The position numbers and the translations under genes were made by a program. A DNA stretch of 39,871 nt from Candidatus Gastranaerophilales bacterium (GTDB lineage Bacteria; Cyanobacteriota; Vampirovibrionia; Gastranaerophilales; Gastranaerophilaceae), in assembly GCA_944322725.1 (NCBI GenBank), contig CALUPU010000015.1, positions 1 through 39,871 of the forward strand, in the 5' to 3' direction. Shown piece by piece: positions 24,495-39,871 of this stretch (its first letter is position 1; every line of letters begins with the position of its first letter). Below the pieces are notes generated by a model that worked only from the letters and a program-made list of their open reading frames with translations, was not told the origin of the DNA and did not search any database.

Positions 24495-24809
24495 TTACAC
24501 CAATAATCTTAATCCTGTTATTCCGCTTATAATAAGAGCAATACAGATTAGTCGCATAGCGGTTACTGGTTCTTTAAAAAGTATAATTCCGAAAATGACA
24601 GTTCCGACTGTTCCGATTCCTGTCCAGATTGCATATGCAGTGCCTAAAGGAAAATGTTTTAGCGCAAGCGCCAGAAAATAAAAACTCGCAATCATACAGA
24701 CAACTGTTATGATAGATGGAATAATCAGTGAAAACCCTTGTGTAAACTTCAAACCTACAGCCCAGCTAATTTCAAATAATCCTGCTACTAATAAATACAT
24801 CCAATGCAT
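24495..24809 (-). CDS. gdx: Guanidinium exporter Gdx (SugE-type SMR protein)
   Basis: 104-residue, four-helix small multidrug resistance family protein. Helix 1 has AGLFEISWAVGLKFTQGF with the essential Glu near residue 13 in the SugE-type E-(I/V)-x-W-A-V-G-L-K context. The loop GTAYAIWTGIGTVG and helix 4 (LICIALIISGITGL) match SugE/Gdx rather than EmrE. The family exports guanidinium in exchange for protons as a dimer of antiparallel subunits. A guanidine-I riboswitch and terminator lie directly upstream (24841-24950), which supports the substrate assignment. Confidence 0.93.
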   Translation of the reverse strand: MHWMYLLVAGLFEISWAVGLKFTQGFSLIIPSIITVVCMIASFYFLALALKHFPLGTAYAIWTGIGTVGTVIFGIILFKEPVTAMRLICIALIISGITGLRLLV

Positions 24810-24840
24810 AAAATTTCTGCTTGTCCTTTCATTTTTATAG

Positions 24841-24876
24841 AAAAAACCTGAGAGATATATTATCTCCCAGGTTTTT
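24841..24876 (-). terminator. Riboswitch-controlled terminator upstream of gdx
   Basis: On the minus strand AACCTGGGAGAT pairs with ATCTCTCAGGTT (12 bp including one G-U) around a 5-nt loop, followed by T. Its 5' arm overlaps the 3' side of the aptamer, so ligand binding would compete with the terminator. Confidence 0.85.
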
Positions 24877-24950
24877 ATCCTTCCGTGTACACAAACTTTG
24901 TGAGTTTTCTCTCGGACCAGACCAATAATATAATTGCGGAACCCTAGAAA
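24860..24950 (-). ncRNA. Guanidine-I (ykkC) riboswitch
   Basis: The minus strand carries the conserved ykkC blocks in order: CTAGGGTTCCG (24947-24937), CTGGTCCGAGAGAAAAC (about 24922-24906), ACACGGAAGGATAAAA (about 24891-24876) and CCTGGGAGA. This is the guanidine-sensing aptamer class. The overlapping terminator predicts that guanidine binding permits transcription into gdx. Confidence 0.92.
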
Positions 24951-25025
24951 ACATTTATTATTAAATTATAATAAGAGTTTATCATAAAATTTACCATAAA
25001 CAAGTATAATCTAAATAAATAAATG

Positions 25026-31251: not shown

Positions 31252-33033
31252 ATGTTATCAGTCAACTACAATCCTTCTGTGATGATTACTCAGAGGAACA
31301 TAGCTTTGGCGTCCGGCGGTGTTTTTTCTGCGCTGGAGCGGATGAGCACGGGGTTTAGGATCAACCGTGCTGCTGATGATGCAGCGGGGATGTATGTTGC
31401 TACGGGGTTAGAGGTACAGATTAGGGGGTTAAGGCAGGCGCAGAGGAATGTAAGTGATGGGATATCACTTTTGAATACGGCTGATGGTGCATTGAGTAAT
31501 ATGACGGGGTTGTTGTCGAGGATTCGGGATCTTGCGGTGCAGGGGGGTAATGGGGTATATGATGATTTATCAAGAGAAGCTATGCAGATGGAGGCTGATT
31601 CTCTTATTGACGAGTTATATCAAGTTAGGGATTCTGCGGTATTTAACGGGATGAAGATATTTGGGGATGGTGTTAAGGCTTCTGCTGCGGGGGTTTCGGC
31701 GGTCAGTGCCCCCCGAGACTCTAAAATCCTTGCTATGAGTGATGTTTCAGCGTTAAGTTCTAATGTTGTTCCTGAGGGATACATAGGGATTTACAGTGCT
31801 GAGGATTTAGACAGGGTAAGGGATAATCTTGGCGGCAAATACATACTTATGAATGACATTGATTTATCATCTTTTGCGAACTGGGATCCGATTGGGGATA
31901 AGGGTGCTGCGTTTACGGGGGTTTTTGACGGGAACGGGCATGTTGTTAAGAATTTGACGATTGACAGAAGTGATGAAAACGATGTGGGGTTGTTTGGGTA
32001 TGTTGAAGGTTCAACAATAAAGAACCTGGGGGTAGTAGATGCAAATGTTAAAGGCAATGAATATGTCGGTATTATCATCGGGTCTGCACAGACGCACTTA
32101 AATAATCTATATCAATGTTATTCAACTGGGAGCGTCAGCGGTGCAACAACTGTCGGGGGTATTGCTGGTTACGGGGATAATATTTATATAGACAAATGCT
32201 ATTCATCAGCGAATGTAACAGGTACTGTATTTACAGGTGGAATTTCTGGTCATGCAGGGTGGAGGCTAAATAATTGTTATTTTAGCGGAACTGTAACAGG
32301 TAGAGAAAGAACAGGAGGAATCGTCGGAAATAACTGGGGAAGGATAGAGTATTGCTACGTAACAGGTGAAGTTTCAGGCATTAATGTAGGCGCAACAGGT
32401 GCAATAGCCGGCGGGAATAATCCAAGAACAATACAAAACTGTTTATGGGATACGGAAAAAACAGGGGTAACAAAAGTTGTTGGTACTGATAACGGGGGAA
32501 CTTATATAAACAATAATGGTTTAACCGGTGCTGAAATGGCTGACCCCAGTAACTGGGAAGGGTGGGATTCTTCTGTCTGGGATTTATCAAAAGTACCGCC
32601 CGAAATTATATTTATAATAGAAAAGCCCGAACAGTCTACAGGCAACATCCGTTTGCAGGTTGGGGCGGATTCTGACCCTTATGCTAATGCGGTATACGTG
32701 GATACAGTTCTTGAGTTAGGAGATTTTTCTGTTGATTTTTCGACTGCTGAGTCTTGTGCTGGTGCTATTGATGATATTGATGAATTAATGAATGTTGTTA
32801 CAGCGAAGCGTTCTGAGGTTGGGGCTTACATTAACAGGTTAGAGTCTGTTTTAGATACACAGATTACCAGCATAGAGAACCTGACTGCTGCCAAGTCTAC
32901 TATTATGGATGCTGATATTGCTCAGGAGTCTGCTAATTTTGTTAAGAATCAGATTCTTCAACAGACCTCTGCGGCTCTCCTTTCTCAGGCACAGAGGGCG
33001 AGAGCTTCTGTTATTATGGCTTTGATAACCTAA
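31252..33033 (+). CDS. Flagellin with GLUG-repeat central insert
   Basis: 593 residues. The N-terminal flagellin D0/D1 domain (1-140) has the family motifs ERMSTGFRINRAADDAAGM, LRQAQRNVSDGISLLNTADG and LSRIRDLAVQGGNG. The C-terminal D1/D0 domain (about 495-593) has AIDDIDELMNVVTAKRSEVG, ENLTAAKSTIMDADIAQESA and LLSQAQRARASVI. The variable centre (about 180-440) is not a usual D2/D3 domain. It consists of GLUG-type repeats: VGGIAGYGDNIYIDKCYSSA, TGGISGHAGWRLNNCYFSG, TGGIVGNNWGRIEYCYVTG. An ENLGGKYILMNDID-like start precedes them (NLGGKYILMNDIDLSSF). No Shine-Dalgarno is close; CAGGGAT lies 12 nt upstream. Flanking coding DNA is G-rich (many GGG codons), unlike neighbours. Confidence 0.93.
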   Translation: MLSVNYNPSVMITQRNIALASGGVFSALERMSTGFRINRAADDAAGMYVATGLEVQIRGLRQAQRNVSDGISLLNTADGALSNMTGLLSRIRDLAVQGGNGVYDDLSREAMQMEADSLIDELYQVRDSAVFNGMKIFGDGVKASAAGVSAVSAPRDSKILAMSDVSALSSNVVPEGYIGIYSAEDLDRVRDNLGGKYILMNDIDLSSFANWDPIGDKGAAFTGVFDGNGHVVKNLTIDRSDENDVGLFGYVEGSTIKNLGVVDANVKGNEYVGIIIGSAQTHLNNLYQCYSTGSVSGATTVGGIAGYGDNIYIDKCYSSANVTGTVFTGGISGHAGWRLNNCYFSGTVTGRERTGGIVGNNWGRIEYCYVTGEVSGINVGATGAIAGGNNPRTIQNCLWDTEKTGVTKVVGTDNGGTYINNNGLTGAEMADPSNWEGWDSSVWDLSKVPPEIIFIIEKPEQSTGNIRLQVGADSDPYANAVYVDTVLELGDFSVDFSTAESCAGAIDDIDELMNVVTAKRSEVGAYINRLESVLDTQITSIENLTAAKSTIMDADIAQESANFVKNQILQQTSAALLSQAQRARASVIMALIT

Positions 33034-37618: not shown

Positions 37619-37643
37619 TTTTTAACCTCTTTATTAATTAAAA

Positions 37644-37787
37644 TCGGGATGATAGGCTGTCGTTGGCGAGATACGAGCCTTACGAAAGCGAATCAGACAT
37701 TCCGAAAAATAGCGTAAGCGTTCTTTTTCGAGAAGTCTGACAAGATGTAATCTTGTTCCATAATCTTTGAATAATAAGCAAACAAAA
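37644..37787 (-). repeat. 3' flanking unit of tRNA-Pro(CGG), ending in a copy of the tRNA 3' end
   Basis: Downstream of the tRNA one 144-bp unit ends in TCATCCCGATTTT, identical to the tRNA 3' end plus trailer. It contains a long hairpin (CAGAC...GTCTG with CGAAAAA/TTTTTCG inside, about 37693-37741). It also holds a conserved small fold at 37660-37685 that recurs in the tRNA-Pro(TGG) 3' units. Confidence 0.8.
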
Positions 37788-37861
37788 TCGGGATGACAAG
37801 ATTCGAACTTGCGACCCCCGCGACCCGAACACGGTGCGCTACCAAACTGCGCTACATCCCG
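37788..37861 (-). tRNA. tRNA-Pro (anticodon CGG), no encoded CCA
   Basis: Minus strand: CGGGATG pairs with CATCCCG. D-arm GCGCAGTTTGGTAGCGC, anticodon arm CCGTG-TTCGGGT-CGCGG with CGG, T-loop TTCGAAT, discriminator A. The next bases are TTTTG, so CCA must be added after transcription. Confidence 0.93.
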
Positions 37862-38063
37862 ATTTCTATATTCAGAATTTCGCGCCCCTACGGTGCTACC
37901 TCTCGTTCGAAATGACATTTAGTCATTTCTCCCTCGGCACAGTCAAACTGCGCTACATCCCGATTTCTATATTCAGAATTTCGCGCCCCTACGGTGCTAC
38001 CTCTCGTTCGAAATGACATTTAGTCATTTCTCCCTCGGCACAGTCAAACTGCGCTACATCCCG
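37862..38063 (-). repeat. 5' flanking array of tRNA-Pro(CGG): two 101-bp units
   Basis: Copies of the tRNA start recur at 37962 and 38063, exactly 101 bp apart. Each unit begins with the first 19 nt of the tRNA (CGGGATGTAGCGCAGTTTG). It continues with GTGC, a perfect hairpin GAAATGAC-TAAAT-GTCATTTC, and GCAC, then a GTAGGGGCGCG stretch and an AT-rich linker. The units lie on the transcribed 5' side of the tRNA. The further gap 38064-38249 is AT-rich with no gene. Confidence 0.9.
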
Positions 38064-38249
38064 ATTTCTATTAAGTTTTCAATTTTTACTATTTAATTTT
38101 ATCATAAAATATCTAATTACAAGAGTATTAAACTGAAAAATATTTCTTAATAAAAATATTAAAAAATTTAAGTTATTGACTAATTTTAAAATTTCAATTG
38201 TTTTATAAAATCGTAATAGTAAGTAAAAACAATAATAAAAGGTGGAATC

Positions 38250-38363: not shown

Positions 38364-39152
38364 TTATATGTCTTTATTATCTTTTATCGCAAATATATTT
38401 TTACCTATCTCTTTAAAATTCAAAATATCAAGTGTTTTTAAAAGAATCGGTAGTTTTTCTCTGTCATAATCGCCAATTACAAGTATACTGTTTTTGTGCA
38501 TAGCATTCTTAAGATTATACAAAATTAATGTTGTATCTACACTTCCAAAACTCTGTGCAAGACAATTCCTGACAATAAATATGGAATTTCCTATGTCTTT
38601 TGTATTTGCAATTCTTTTTTGTAAATCCATAACATCAAATTTAAATAGTTTTTTAAAATCAGGCTTTAACATATAAGCCCTTGATGATAGAGAATATTCC
38701 GATCCCTTGGGCAGCATCGACTTATCAATTTCTTCAAAATATTTATATAAATTTTTGCCAAAAATTCTTGTTTCATCATCGCTGAGAGACACTATACCCT
38801 TTTGTCCAAATGAATTAATAATATATGAATCAACATCCGATACCAAAATAGGAAATATTCTTTTTAATGTTTTAACATCAAAAATATTTAGTATTGAATT
38901 AGCAATAAGATAAGCTTCCGTACCATCAGAACCATTCATAGGCATTAAATTTATTTTATCATAACCTGCAAAACGATTTTTGATTATTGTTGCAAGTTCA
39001 TCATAATCCAAATCATTTCTCGCACCTGTGGTATTTTGGGTAGAACGATTATTGCCATAGCAGTCTGTATATGATGTAAGGCGGAATAATGATTTAAAAG
39101 CCGGTTTTTTATAATAATTATTGATGTATCCCAAACTATTATTTATTCGCAT
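38364..39152 (-). CDS. Divergent CheR-like methyltransferase-fold protein
   Basis: 262 residues from ATG 39152 (GTG 39167 gives five more). A short start with KKPAFKS (about residues 15-21) leads to a region with the CheR-like order of motifs: MPMNGSDGTEAYLIANSI (SAM motif I-like, CheR CSTGEEPYS), FPILVSDVDSYIINSF (acidic adenosine site, CheR ATDID), GSEYSLSSRAYMLKP, FKFDVMDLQ, and NSIFIVRNCLAQSF (CheR DLIFCRNVLIYF). It ends ILVIGDYDREKL. The chemoreceptor-binding N-terminal domain of true CheR is missing, so a chemotaxis role is doubtful. No clear Shine-Dalgarno; TATATT lies 3 nt before ATG 39152. Confidence 0.6.
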   Translation of the reverse strand: MRINNSLGYINNYYKKPAFKSLFRLTSYTDCYGNNRSTQNTTGARNDLDYDELATIIKNRFAGYDKINLMPMNGSDGTEAYLIANSILNIFDVKTLKRIFPILVSDVDSYIINSFGQKGIVSLSDDETRIFGKNLYKYFEEIDKSMLPKGSEYSLSSRAYMLKPDFKKLFKFDVMDLQKRIANTKDIGNSIFIVRNCLAQSFGSVDTTLILYNLKNAMHKNSILVIGDYDREKLPILLKTLDILNFKEIGKNIFAIKDNKDI

Positions 39153-39223
39153 ACTAATATAAAACACAAAAAAATTTTTTTGCTTACTTTAATATGAGTT
39201 AAACTGAAAAAATTTATTACATA

Positions 39224-39537
39224 AAAAAATCCGATGCGTGAAACCTGCGAACAATTACAAAAAAATATCGGAACGACAGGATTTGTCTTGAACTGTTGAC
39301 GAGTTTGCGAGTCTTACAGTTCAGGATCAGGCGAGTGATTTTTGAGTCCGGAGGACGTAAAAAATCCGATGCGTGAAACCTGCGAACAATTACAAAAAAA
39401 TATCGGAACGACAGGATTTGTCTTGAACTGTTGACGAGTTTGCGAGTCTTACAGTTCAGGATCAGGCGAGTGATTTTTGAGTCCGGAGGACGTAAAAAAT
39501 CCGATGCGTGAAACCTGCGAACAATTACAAAAAAATA
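39224..39537 (-). repeat. 3' flanking array of tRNA-Pro(TGG): two 135-bp units plus a partial unit
   Basis: The sequence at 39231, 39366 and 39501 recurs at an exact 135-bp period. On the tRNA strand each unit ends with AAATCCTGTCGTTCCGA followed by TATTTTTTTG, identical to the 3' end and trailer of the tRNA. Each unit also holds a degenerate T-arm (GTTCGCAGGTTTCACGC) and a hairpin at 39290-39322 (and 39425-39457) matching that of the CGG locus. A third copy is cut off near 39224. Confidence 0.9.
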
Positions 39538-39611
39538 TCGGAACGACAGGATTTGAACCTGCGACCCCCACCACCCCAAGGTGGTGCGCTACCAAGCTGC
39601 GCTACGTCCCG
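39538..39611 (-). tRNA. tRNA-Pro (anticodon TGG), no encoded CCA
   Basis: Minus strand: CGGGACG pairs with CGTTCCG (one G-T pair). D-arm GCGCAGCTTGGTAGCGC, anticodon arm CCACC-TTGGGGT-GGTGG with TGG, T-arm CAGGTTCAAATCCTG, discriminator A. CCA is not encoded (TATTTT follows). Confidence 0.94.
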
Positions 39612-39812
39612 ATATTTCTATTCAATTTTCAAACACCTTGCCCGCGCACCTACGCTGCTTCCTCTCGTTCGAAATGACATTTAGTCATTTCTCACTCGGC
39701 AGAGTGTCCCGATATTTCTATTCAATTTTCAAACACCTTGCCCGCGCACCTACGCTGCTTCCTCTCGTCCGAAATGACATTTAGTCATTTCTCCCTCGGC
39801 AGAGTGTCCCGA
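39612..39812 (-). repeat. 5' flanking array of tRNA-Pro(TGG): two ~100-bp units
   Basis: Copies of the tRNA start (CGGGAC with upstream GAATAGAAATAT) recur at 39711 and 39812, with periods of 100 and 101 bp (one extra T in the outer unit). Units contain CTGC, the GAAATGAC-hairpin-GTCATTTC, and GCAG. They share about 35 nt with the CGG-locus units. A candidate promoter lies outside (TTGTCT at 39859-39854 with a weak TAGATT at 39836-39831). Confidence 0.88.
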
Positions 39813-39871
39813 TATTTCTATTCAATTTTCAATCTATAATAATATTTTAATACAGACAAAAAAAAATATAA

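Follow-up and report, generated by a model that had tools for sequence, protein, structure and literature searches.

Proline tRNA genes and their tandem units

The window, meaning the whole stretch of DNA that was analysed, is 39,871 nucleotides in length and is contig C15 of a 1.9-Mb draft genome of Candidatus Gastranaerophilales. It contains two intact proline tRNA genes accompanied by copies of their own ends and by hairpin-forming sequence. The features are as follows.

37787–37862, minus strand: intact tRNA-Pro(CGG) (ARAGORN; Rfam RF00005, 60 bits)
37843–37943, plus strand: unit 1 at Pro(CGG), 101 nt, composed of the antisense tRNA 5' end (D-arm and acceptor), flank, left hairpin, and hairpin module (exact tandem repeat)
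37882–37896, plus strand: left hairpin H1 of Pro(CGG) unit 1, GCGCC-CCTAC-GGTGC (DNA fold z of −2.5 for the segment; comparison with other units)
37899–37943, plus strand: hairpin module H2, copy 1 at Pro(CGG), CCTCTC...TCGGCACAGT, with its stem at 37909–37916 / 37922–37929 (family alignment, pair counts)
37944–38044, plus strand: unit 2 at Pro(CGG), an exact copy of unit 1, with the H2 module at 38000–38044 (exact tandem repeat)
38045–38071, plus strand: displaced third copy of the Pro(CGG) 5' end with 7 nt of flank, 27 nt (exact 27-nt repeat)
37640–37786, no strand assigned: 3' side of Pro(CGG), a decayed copy of the tRNA 3' end (AAAATCGGGATGA at 37640) and intervening hairpin sequence (13-nt exact repeat at 37640 and 37784; by eye)
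39537–39612, minus strand: intact tRNA-Pro(GGG) (ARAGORN; Rfam RF00005)
39606–39705, plus strand: unit 1 at Pro(GGG), 100 nt, with the H2 module at 39661–39705 (tandem repeat, module search)
39706–39805, plus strand: unit 2 at Pro(GGG), 100 nt, with the H2 module at 39761–39805 (tandem repeat, module search)
39806–39832, plus strand: displaced copy of the Pro(GGG) 5' end with 20 nt of flank, 27 nt (repeat comparison)
39224–39555, minus strand: 3' side of Pro(GGG), two 135-nt tandem units and a 62-nt partial unit; the hairpin here (GAACTGT...ACAGTTC) is a different one, and the tRNA 3' end is present as a copy (repeat comparison, window only)

The 5' side of Pro(CGG) thus carries two exact 101-nucleotide tandem units (37843–38044), and that of Pro(GGG) two 100-nucleotide units (39606–39805) that are 98% identical. 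At the start of every 5' unit is the copied tRNA 5' end with its flank, and each unit contains GAAATGAC-ATTTA-GTCATTTC, the 8-bp hairpin that an earlier note on this DNA had described as shared by both loci. The same note had pointed to a near-identical core between differing flanks. This core is present and extends for approximately 40 nucleotides, from CCTCTC to CGGCA. The second locus had been taken for tRNA-Pro(TGG) and is tRNA-Pro(GGG); tRNA-Pro(TGG) is located on another contig of the same genome, with its own unit. The TGACATTTAGTCA core of the hairpin occurs four times in the window, against 0.15 expected.

By comparison with other units, hairpin H1 at Pro(CGG) is derived from a fold-back of the tRNA D-loop sequence. 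The CTACC found beside some module copies comes from the tRNA D-loop; in other contexts it is missing. The GAACTGT...ACAGTTC units 3' of Pro(GGG) indicate that tRNA ends are used by more than one hairpin family. The tRNA-Val(tac) and tRNA-Phe genes of the window have no module beside them, though the copies of these genes in relatives have one.

A CheR-like methyltransferase gene (38364–39167, minus strand) sits between the two tRNA-Pro genes. The search for orthologous loci around this gene identified one clearly syntenic locus, which contains nested double modules, and no empty site. Elsewhere in the window are a flagellin gene with a GLUG-motif insertion (31252–33033, plus strand) and a Guanidine-I riboswitch (86.8 bits; 24495–24958, minus strand) just upstream of a small multidrug resistance (SMR) family gene. 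The riboswitch and the SMR gene probably form a guanidinium exporter operon.

The hairpin module and its placement

The module is 39 to 47 nucleotides in length and has the form CCTCTC-stem-loop-stem-TCGGCAGAGT. From reading of the loci, its ends (CCTCTC and TCGGCAGAGT) are the constant part, while the stems vary freely with pairing kept. The loops vary as well (ATTTA, ACTCA, ACTTA, CACTGG, and others). Fixing both ends in a search imposes apparent invariance on them; when the core was searched instead, most copies had these same ends and the remainder had the variants GACAGAGT, GGAGTCCTT, and AACAGAGTTCTT.

In its own genome, the TGACATTTAGTCA core has 16 copies, with no control matches, and most of these adjoin Pro, Thr, Leu, Arg, and Val tRNAs. 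The core is present in 102 of 191 genomes of the family. The ends-only search found the module in all 13 of the first-tested genomes, with up to 44 + 42 copies and not one match in the controls. Within a single Gastranaerophilales family, almost every genome sampled carries between 1 and about 86 copies, numbers that are subject to miscounting of arrays in draft metagenome assemblies. A phylum-wide draw returned the module in 83 of 85 family genomes and in none of three class outgroups; 6 of 106 genomes of other cyanobacteria gave a match, each single and without a paired stem. The module is absent from the viral contigs and plasmids searched, and a phage or plasmid origin was rejected on this ground. 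Rfam 15 covariance models recovered only the tRNA at gathering score and nothing credible at E values up to 5, and no description of a hairpin repeat in this lineage was found in the open-access literature. The tandem hairpin units beside the Pro tRNAs belong to a previously unnamed repeat family of gut Gastranaerophilales.

Module arrays at tRNA genes occur at or near contig ends, as at the start of C1, the end of C4, the end of C15, and the start of C17 in this genome. These positions suggest that the arrays break assemblies. Another dispersed palindrome, ending in CAGACACAGTGAGCCTCGTCGGTCCCGCC and having the same TGACATTTAGTCA tip, is found near tRNA-Asp (loci L251 and L264).

At tRNA genes, the module sits between the intact tRNA and a displaced copy of its terminal segment and flank. 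A copy of the tRNA's own end follows 96 of the 103 modules close to tRNA genes. Tail matches of at least 10 nucleotides were found for 92 of the 103, whereas comparison with tRNAs for other amino acids gave 61 of 515. Among the 96 matches, the 5'-side junctions fall at nucleotides 11/12 (52), 17–20 (17), 6–8 (9), and 26 (2), and the 3'-side junctions at approximately 62–67, or at 74 in the long-arm Leu tRNAs (14 together). The two further tail matches fell outside the tRNA. Within the same genus, 39 of 95 cores are located within 300 nucleotides of a tRNA, compared with an expectation of about 1.5% that assumes 45 tRNA genes per 2 Mb.

The duplication often extends past the tRNA, into the AT-rich, promoter-like sequence upstream or across the terminator (its length is, for example, 47 nucleotides at tRNA-Val(tac), locus L263), and because this flank is included the tRNA gene is left intact. 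An AT-rich motif, TTGAMAATTNAATA in tRNA sense, lies about 20 nucleotides upstream of the tRNA and is often the outer limit of the duplicated segment (e.g., L111, L244, and L262); it may be a promoter element. The module is antisense at 5'-side tRNAs and sense at 3'-side tRNAs, with its GGCAGAGT end always outward. Its orientation is therefore set by the tRNA end and not by transcription.

Two further arrangements were observed at tRNA genes. The inserts of L263 and L269, 3' of tRNA-Val(tac), start with an inverted T-arm copy (GTTGAGAGGC..ACTCCCGAC); compensated changes distinguish the stems of the two species, and the insertions are otherwise near-identical. The tRNA-Gly(TCC) gene at L024 (1825–2090, contig C7 of the same genome) has tandem units with another hairpin (CCTGCCTTCTCGGCAGG ... 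GAGTGCTCTGCACTC) that end in the tRNA 5' end and follow the arrangement of the Pro units.

Over half of the same-genus copies have no tRNA nearby. Some occupy the loops of intergenic palindromes, in the pattern CTGAGATTCTTCGCC[module]GCTCAGAATGACG (e.g., L141 and L176). A dispersed composite of approximately 95 nucleotides (TATACGGCACGCAG...GAGTTCTT) also carries the module; where it is inserted in a palindrome, a duplicate of the palindrome arm may flank it (L284 and L291). Modules may also abut one another as AGAGT|CTCT (L223, L242, and L271). A larger transposon with the module at its end was considered and rejected: the longest shared stretches (approximately 300–360 bp, several dispersed copies in one genome) look by eye like nested palindromes.

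Compensatory change and the folded strand

The earlier note had placed a compensatory change in an outer helix, GTGC...GCAC at one Pro locus and GCAG paired with CTGC at the other. These sequences are present, but they do not constitute a conserved helix. The 5' partner of GCAG is CTGC, fully paired, in 6 of the 71 elements scored at that position, and an unpaired GTGC stands opposite GCAG in 9. Of 197 distinct elements, 24 have CTGC somewhere in the 12 nucleotides upstream, where chance would give 11. The outer helix rarely forms because GCAG belongs to the invariant 3' sequence TCGGCAGAGT. The compensatory change that keeps the fold is instead found in the inner stem, across many loci and species. 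The window is one of the poorest places to see it, since the inner hairpin is identical in all four copies.

Covariation was measured on 40 distinct 45-nucleotide modules with shuffled and slid controls. Paired cells make up 90.5% (75.3 when shuffled), and 99 cells are changed on both sides (25.9 when shuffled). The covariation score is 0.339, compared with 0.081 for shuffled and 0.047–0.081 for slid versions. Because related sequences were counted as independent, significance is overstated by the shuffle controls, whereas neither the slid controls nor the effect size depends on this assumption. Stem position 14-28 is occupied by GC, AU, CG, or UA, with no unpaired case. Position 13-29 holds a Watson-Crick pair or, in 34 of 83 elements, C.C.

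A 3' insertion at tRNA-Val(tac) common to two species illustrates the pattern. One species has the stem TTTTAAAAC/GTTTTAAAA, the second TTCCAAACC/GCTTTGGAA. Between them, two pairs change with full compensation (TT/AA to CC/GG), and one A-T pair is replaced by C.C. The tRNA-Val(tac) of the window is identical in 76 of 76 positions to the tRNA with the insertion and has no insertion beside it. The fold is maintained by compensatory mutations in the inner stem.

The mismatches differ between strands. Unpaired cells comprise 64 C.C and 108 T.C against 1 G.G and 6 A.G, and this holds in every context. A.C (34) outnumbers G.T (15) on the tRNA 5' side, on the 3' side, and elsewhere alike. The minus strand has the more stable fold in 128 of 136 modules with RNA parameters and in 117 of 136 with DNA parameters. 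Since the pattern is alike in all contexts, the strand is fixed by the element and not by tRNA transcription. Mismatches that are pyrimidine-pyrimidine on one strand, whatever the direction of the tRNA, fit a strand-specific folded-DNA element better than a leader RNA, and we infer that one folded strand of the module is recognised. Folded DNA as the recognised form is favoured, not proven; the recognised form may instead be an RNA made from the element's own minus strand.

Origin of the units and relation to known systems

The units are probably copies of a lineage-specific, non-autonomous, and probably mobile palindromic repeat, a reading held with moderate confidence. The module would enter a hairpin-forming site (D-arm, T-arm, or intergenic palindrome) as a folded single DNA strand. 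Entry would duplicate the outer arm and flank, and the tRNA gene would survive. The resulting direct repeats could then expand by slippage into arrays like those of the window. Recognition of the folded strand as the substrate would explain why compensatory changes are retained. The earlier suggestion that the units reflect more than neutral duplication is upheld to this extent, yet the tRNA end and flank are genuinely duplicated in them, which makes duplication part of their history.

Several observations stand against a mobile repeat. Many copies may come from local duplication or vertical inheritance instead. No transposition event came to light, each of RAYT/Y1 transposase, integron integrase, and reverse transcriptase is lacking in element-rich genomes, and viral contigs and plasmids yielded no copy. 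The duplicated stretch, from about 11 to more than 50 nucleotides, exceeds the usual transposon target duplication in length and in variability. An outer stem formed from tRNA-derived arms averages 4.4 versus 4.1 nucleotides, which is weak overall; a general three-way junction closed by such arms, seen at some Leu, Val, and Gln loci, was rejected for the same weakness.

REP and REPIN sequences are the closest comparison. They are palindromes with strand specificity and a conserved mismatch (PMC8266576; PMC3733652), and in E. coli the REP stem-loops are strand-specific and their conserved mismatches are needed for recognition (PMC8266576). These repeats, which are mobilised by RAYT (TnpA-REP) HUH transposases, are palindromes of 20–50 nucleotides with many dispersed copies per genome. 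The module is also strand-specific with a conserved mismatch, and it likewise has many dispersed and, at the loci read, mostly intergenic copies (up to about 86 per genome, with no control matches). It differs in having no unpaired GTAG or CGTC tag, with the pyrimidine/purine ends CCTCTC and TCGGCAGAGT throughout; in its concentration at tRNA ends, with duplication of the tRNA end; and in the lack of a Y1 transposase in module-rich genomes. Y1_Tnp is absent from genomes G033, G064, G092, and G112 and from four element-rich genomes of its own genus (4 of 4 g33 genomes), and a RAYT was therefore rejected as the mobiliser.

The repetitive hairpin elements of fungal and sponge mitochondria are also small; they multiply, can insert as tandem copies, and join to form double hairpins (PMC2800124). 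Those elements are organellar and unrelated in sequence, and the passages describing them give no rule of tRNA-end duplication. The element is classed among mobile palindromic repeats because it resembles REP/REPIN, although it lacks their tag and transposase; the integron attC likeness is one of logic only, and the insert, whose displaced tRNA fragment is reminiscent of genomic islands, holds no gene.

An origin with no dedicated element is unlikely but still a rival. Quasi-palindromes would then be built and corrected by replication errors templated by hairpins, through fold-back synthesis and template switching in tRNA arms and later slippage. Units do hold inverted tRNA segments, such as the T-arm copy at tRNA-Val(tac) noted above and GGTAGAC-AA-GTCTACC at tRNA-Leu; tandem copies are often exact, and quasi-palindrome correction can yield paired stem changes without selection. 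Such errors do not account for fixed non-tRNA ends that recur family-wide with free stems, or for junctions at preferred tRNA positions, and correction should erase the C.C kept at stem position 13-29.

Somewhat less probable is a cassette-array system, by analogy with integrons. Integration would take place at tRNA arms, and the hairpin module, as a folded single strand, would be the recombination site of a host recombinase, possibly Xer-like, with no cassette genes and no relation to IntI/attC. The attC hairpins are bounded by R'/R'' boxes (GTTRRRY / RYYYAAC). The module shares with attC conserved ends, a variable paired stem, extrahelical bases, strand bias, and head-to-tail arrays, but neither box is present in its invariant ends, there are no cassette genes, and the target is tRNA arms. 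The integron integrase model TIGR02249 had no match above cut-off in any of 29 genomes, which led to its rejection as the mobiliser. Its only matches were Xer-like and also occurred in control genomes; Xer-like proteins are present in all 29 genomes searched.

More doubtful again is that the hairpins are selected as RNA, in the leader or trailer of the tRNA transcript, for processing, stability, or regulation. The earlier note had favoured an RNA made with the tRNA, a claim left unsupported, since neither module orientation nor the non-Watson-Crick pairs track tRNA transcription. The strong stem covariation, the position beside tRNA genes, the promoter-like and terminator-like flank copied into each unit, and the more stable folding of the minus strand, which is tRNA-sense at 5' sites, would all suit such an RNA. 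Modules at 3' sites nevertheless run opposite to those at 5' sites relative to the transcript, and the G.T/A.C ratios do not switch with tRNA direction. The majority of same-genus copies that are not near a tRNA, the lack of a module at the window's tRNA-Val and tRNA-Phe, and the lack of a matching Rfam family also count against it.

Very unlikely is SINE-like copying, in which hairpin targets would receive the reverse-transcribed copy of a transcript with a 3'-terminal hairpin; the 3' end would then be constant, and the 5' end and the target duplications variable. The right end is indeed constant, the left end differs by locus, and the duplications are long and variable, but C.C/T.C-type mismatches persist and RVT_1 is missing from 9 of 10 genomes of the genus, including some with up to 86 modules. 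A reverse transcriptase was rejected as the mobiliser on the latter count.

Most improbable are eroded genomic islands or prophages, whose integrase-dependent attachment sites would have left the displaced tRNA ends: the geometry of intact tRNA, insert, and displaced terminal fragment at the far end (96/103) is that left by island integration (PMC4383910 abstract), but the inserts are short (repeat units of approximately 90–135 nucleotides) and gene-free, the units of about 100 nucleotides being too short for an integrase gene; 5' and 3' ends of many tRNAs are used, with several tandem copies; one hairpin recurs at many different tRNAs and at non-tRNA palindromes; and the local flank is duplicated, not an imported attachment site.

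A mobile palindromic repeat would add a family that targets the arms of tRNA genes and leaves the gene working. This family is common across an uncultured gut lineage, where its arrays are often at or near the contig ends of draft genomes. Compensatory changes around a tRNA gene need not indicate a functional RNA. Should movement via folded single-stranded DNA be demonstrated, IS200/REP and integrons would be joined by a third system of this kind.
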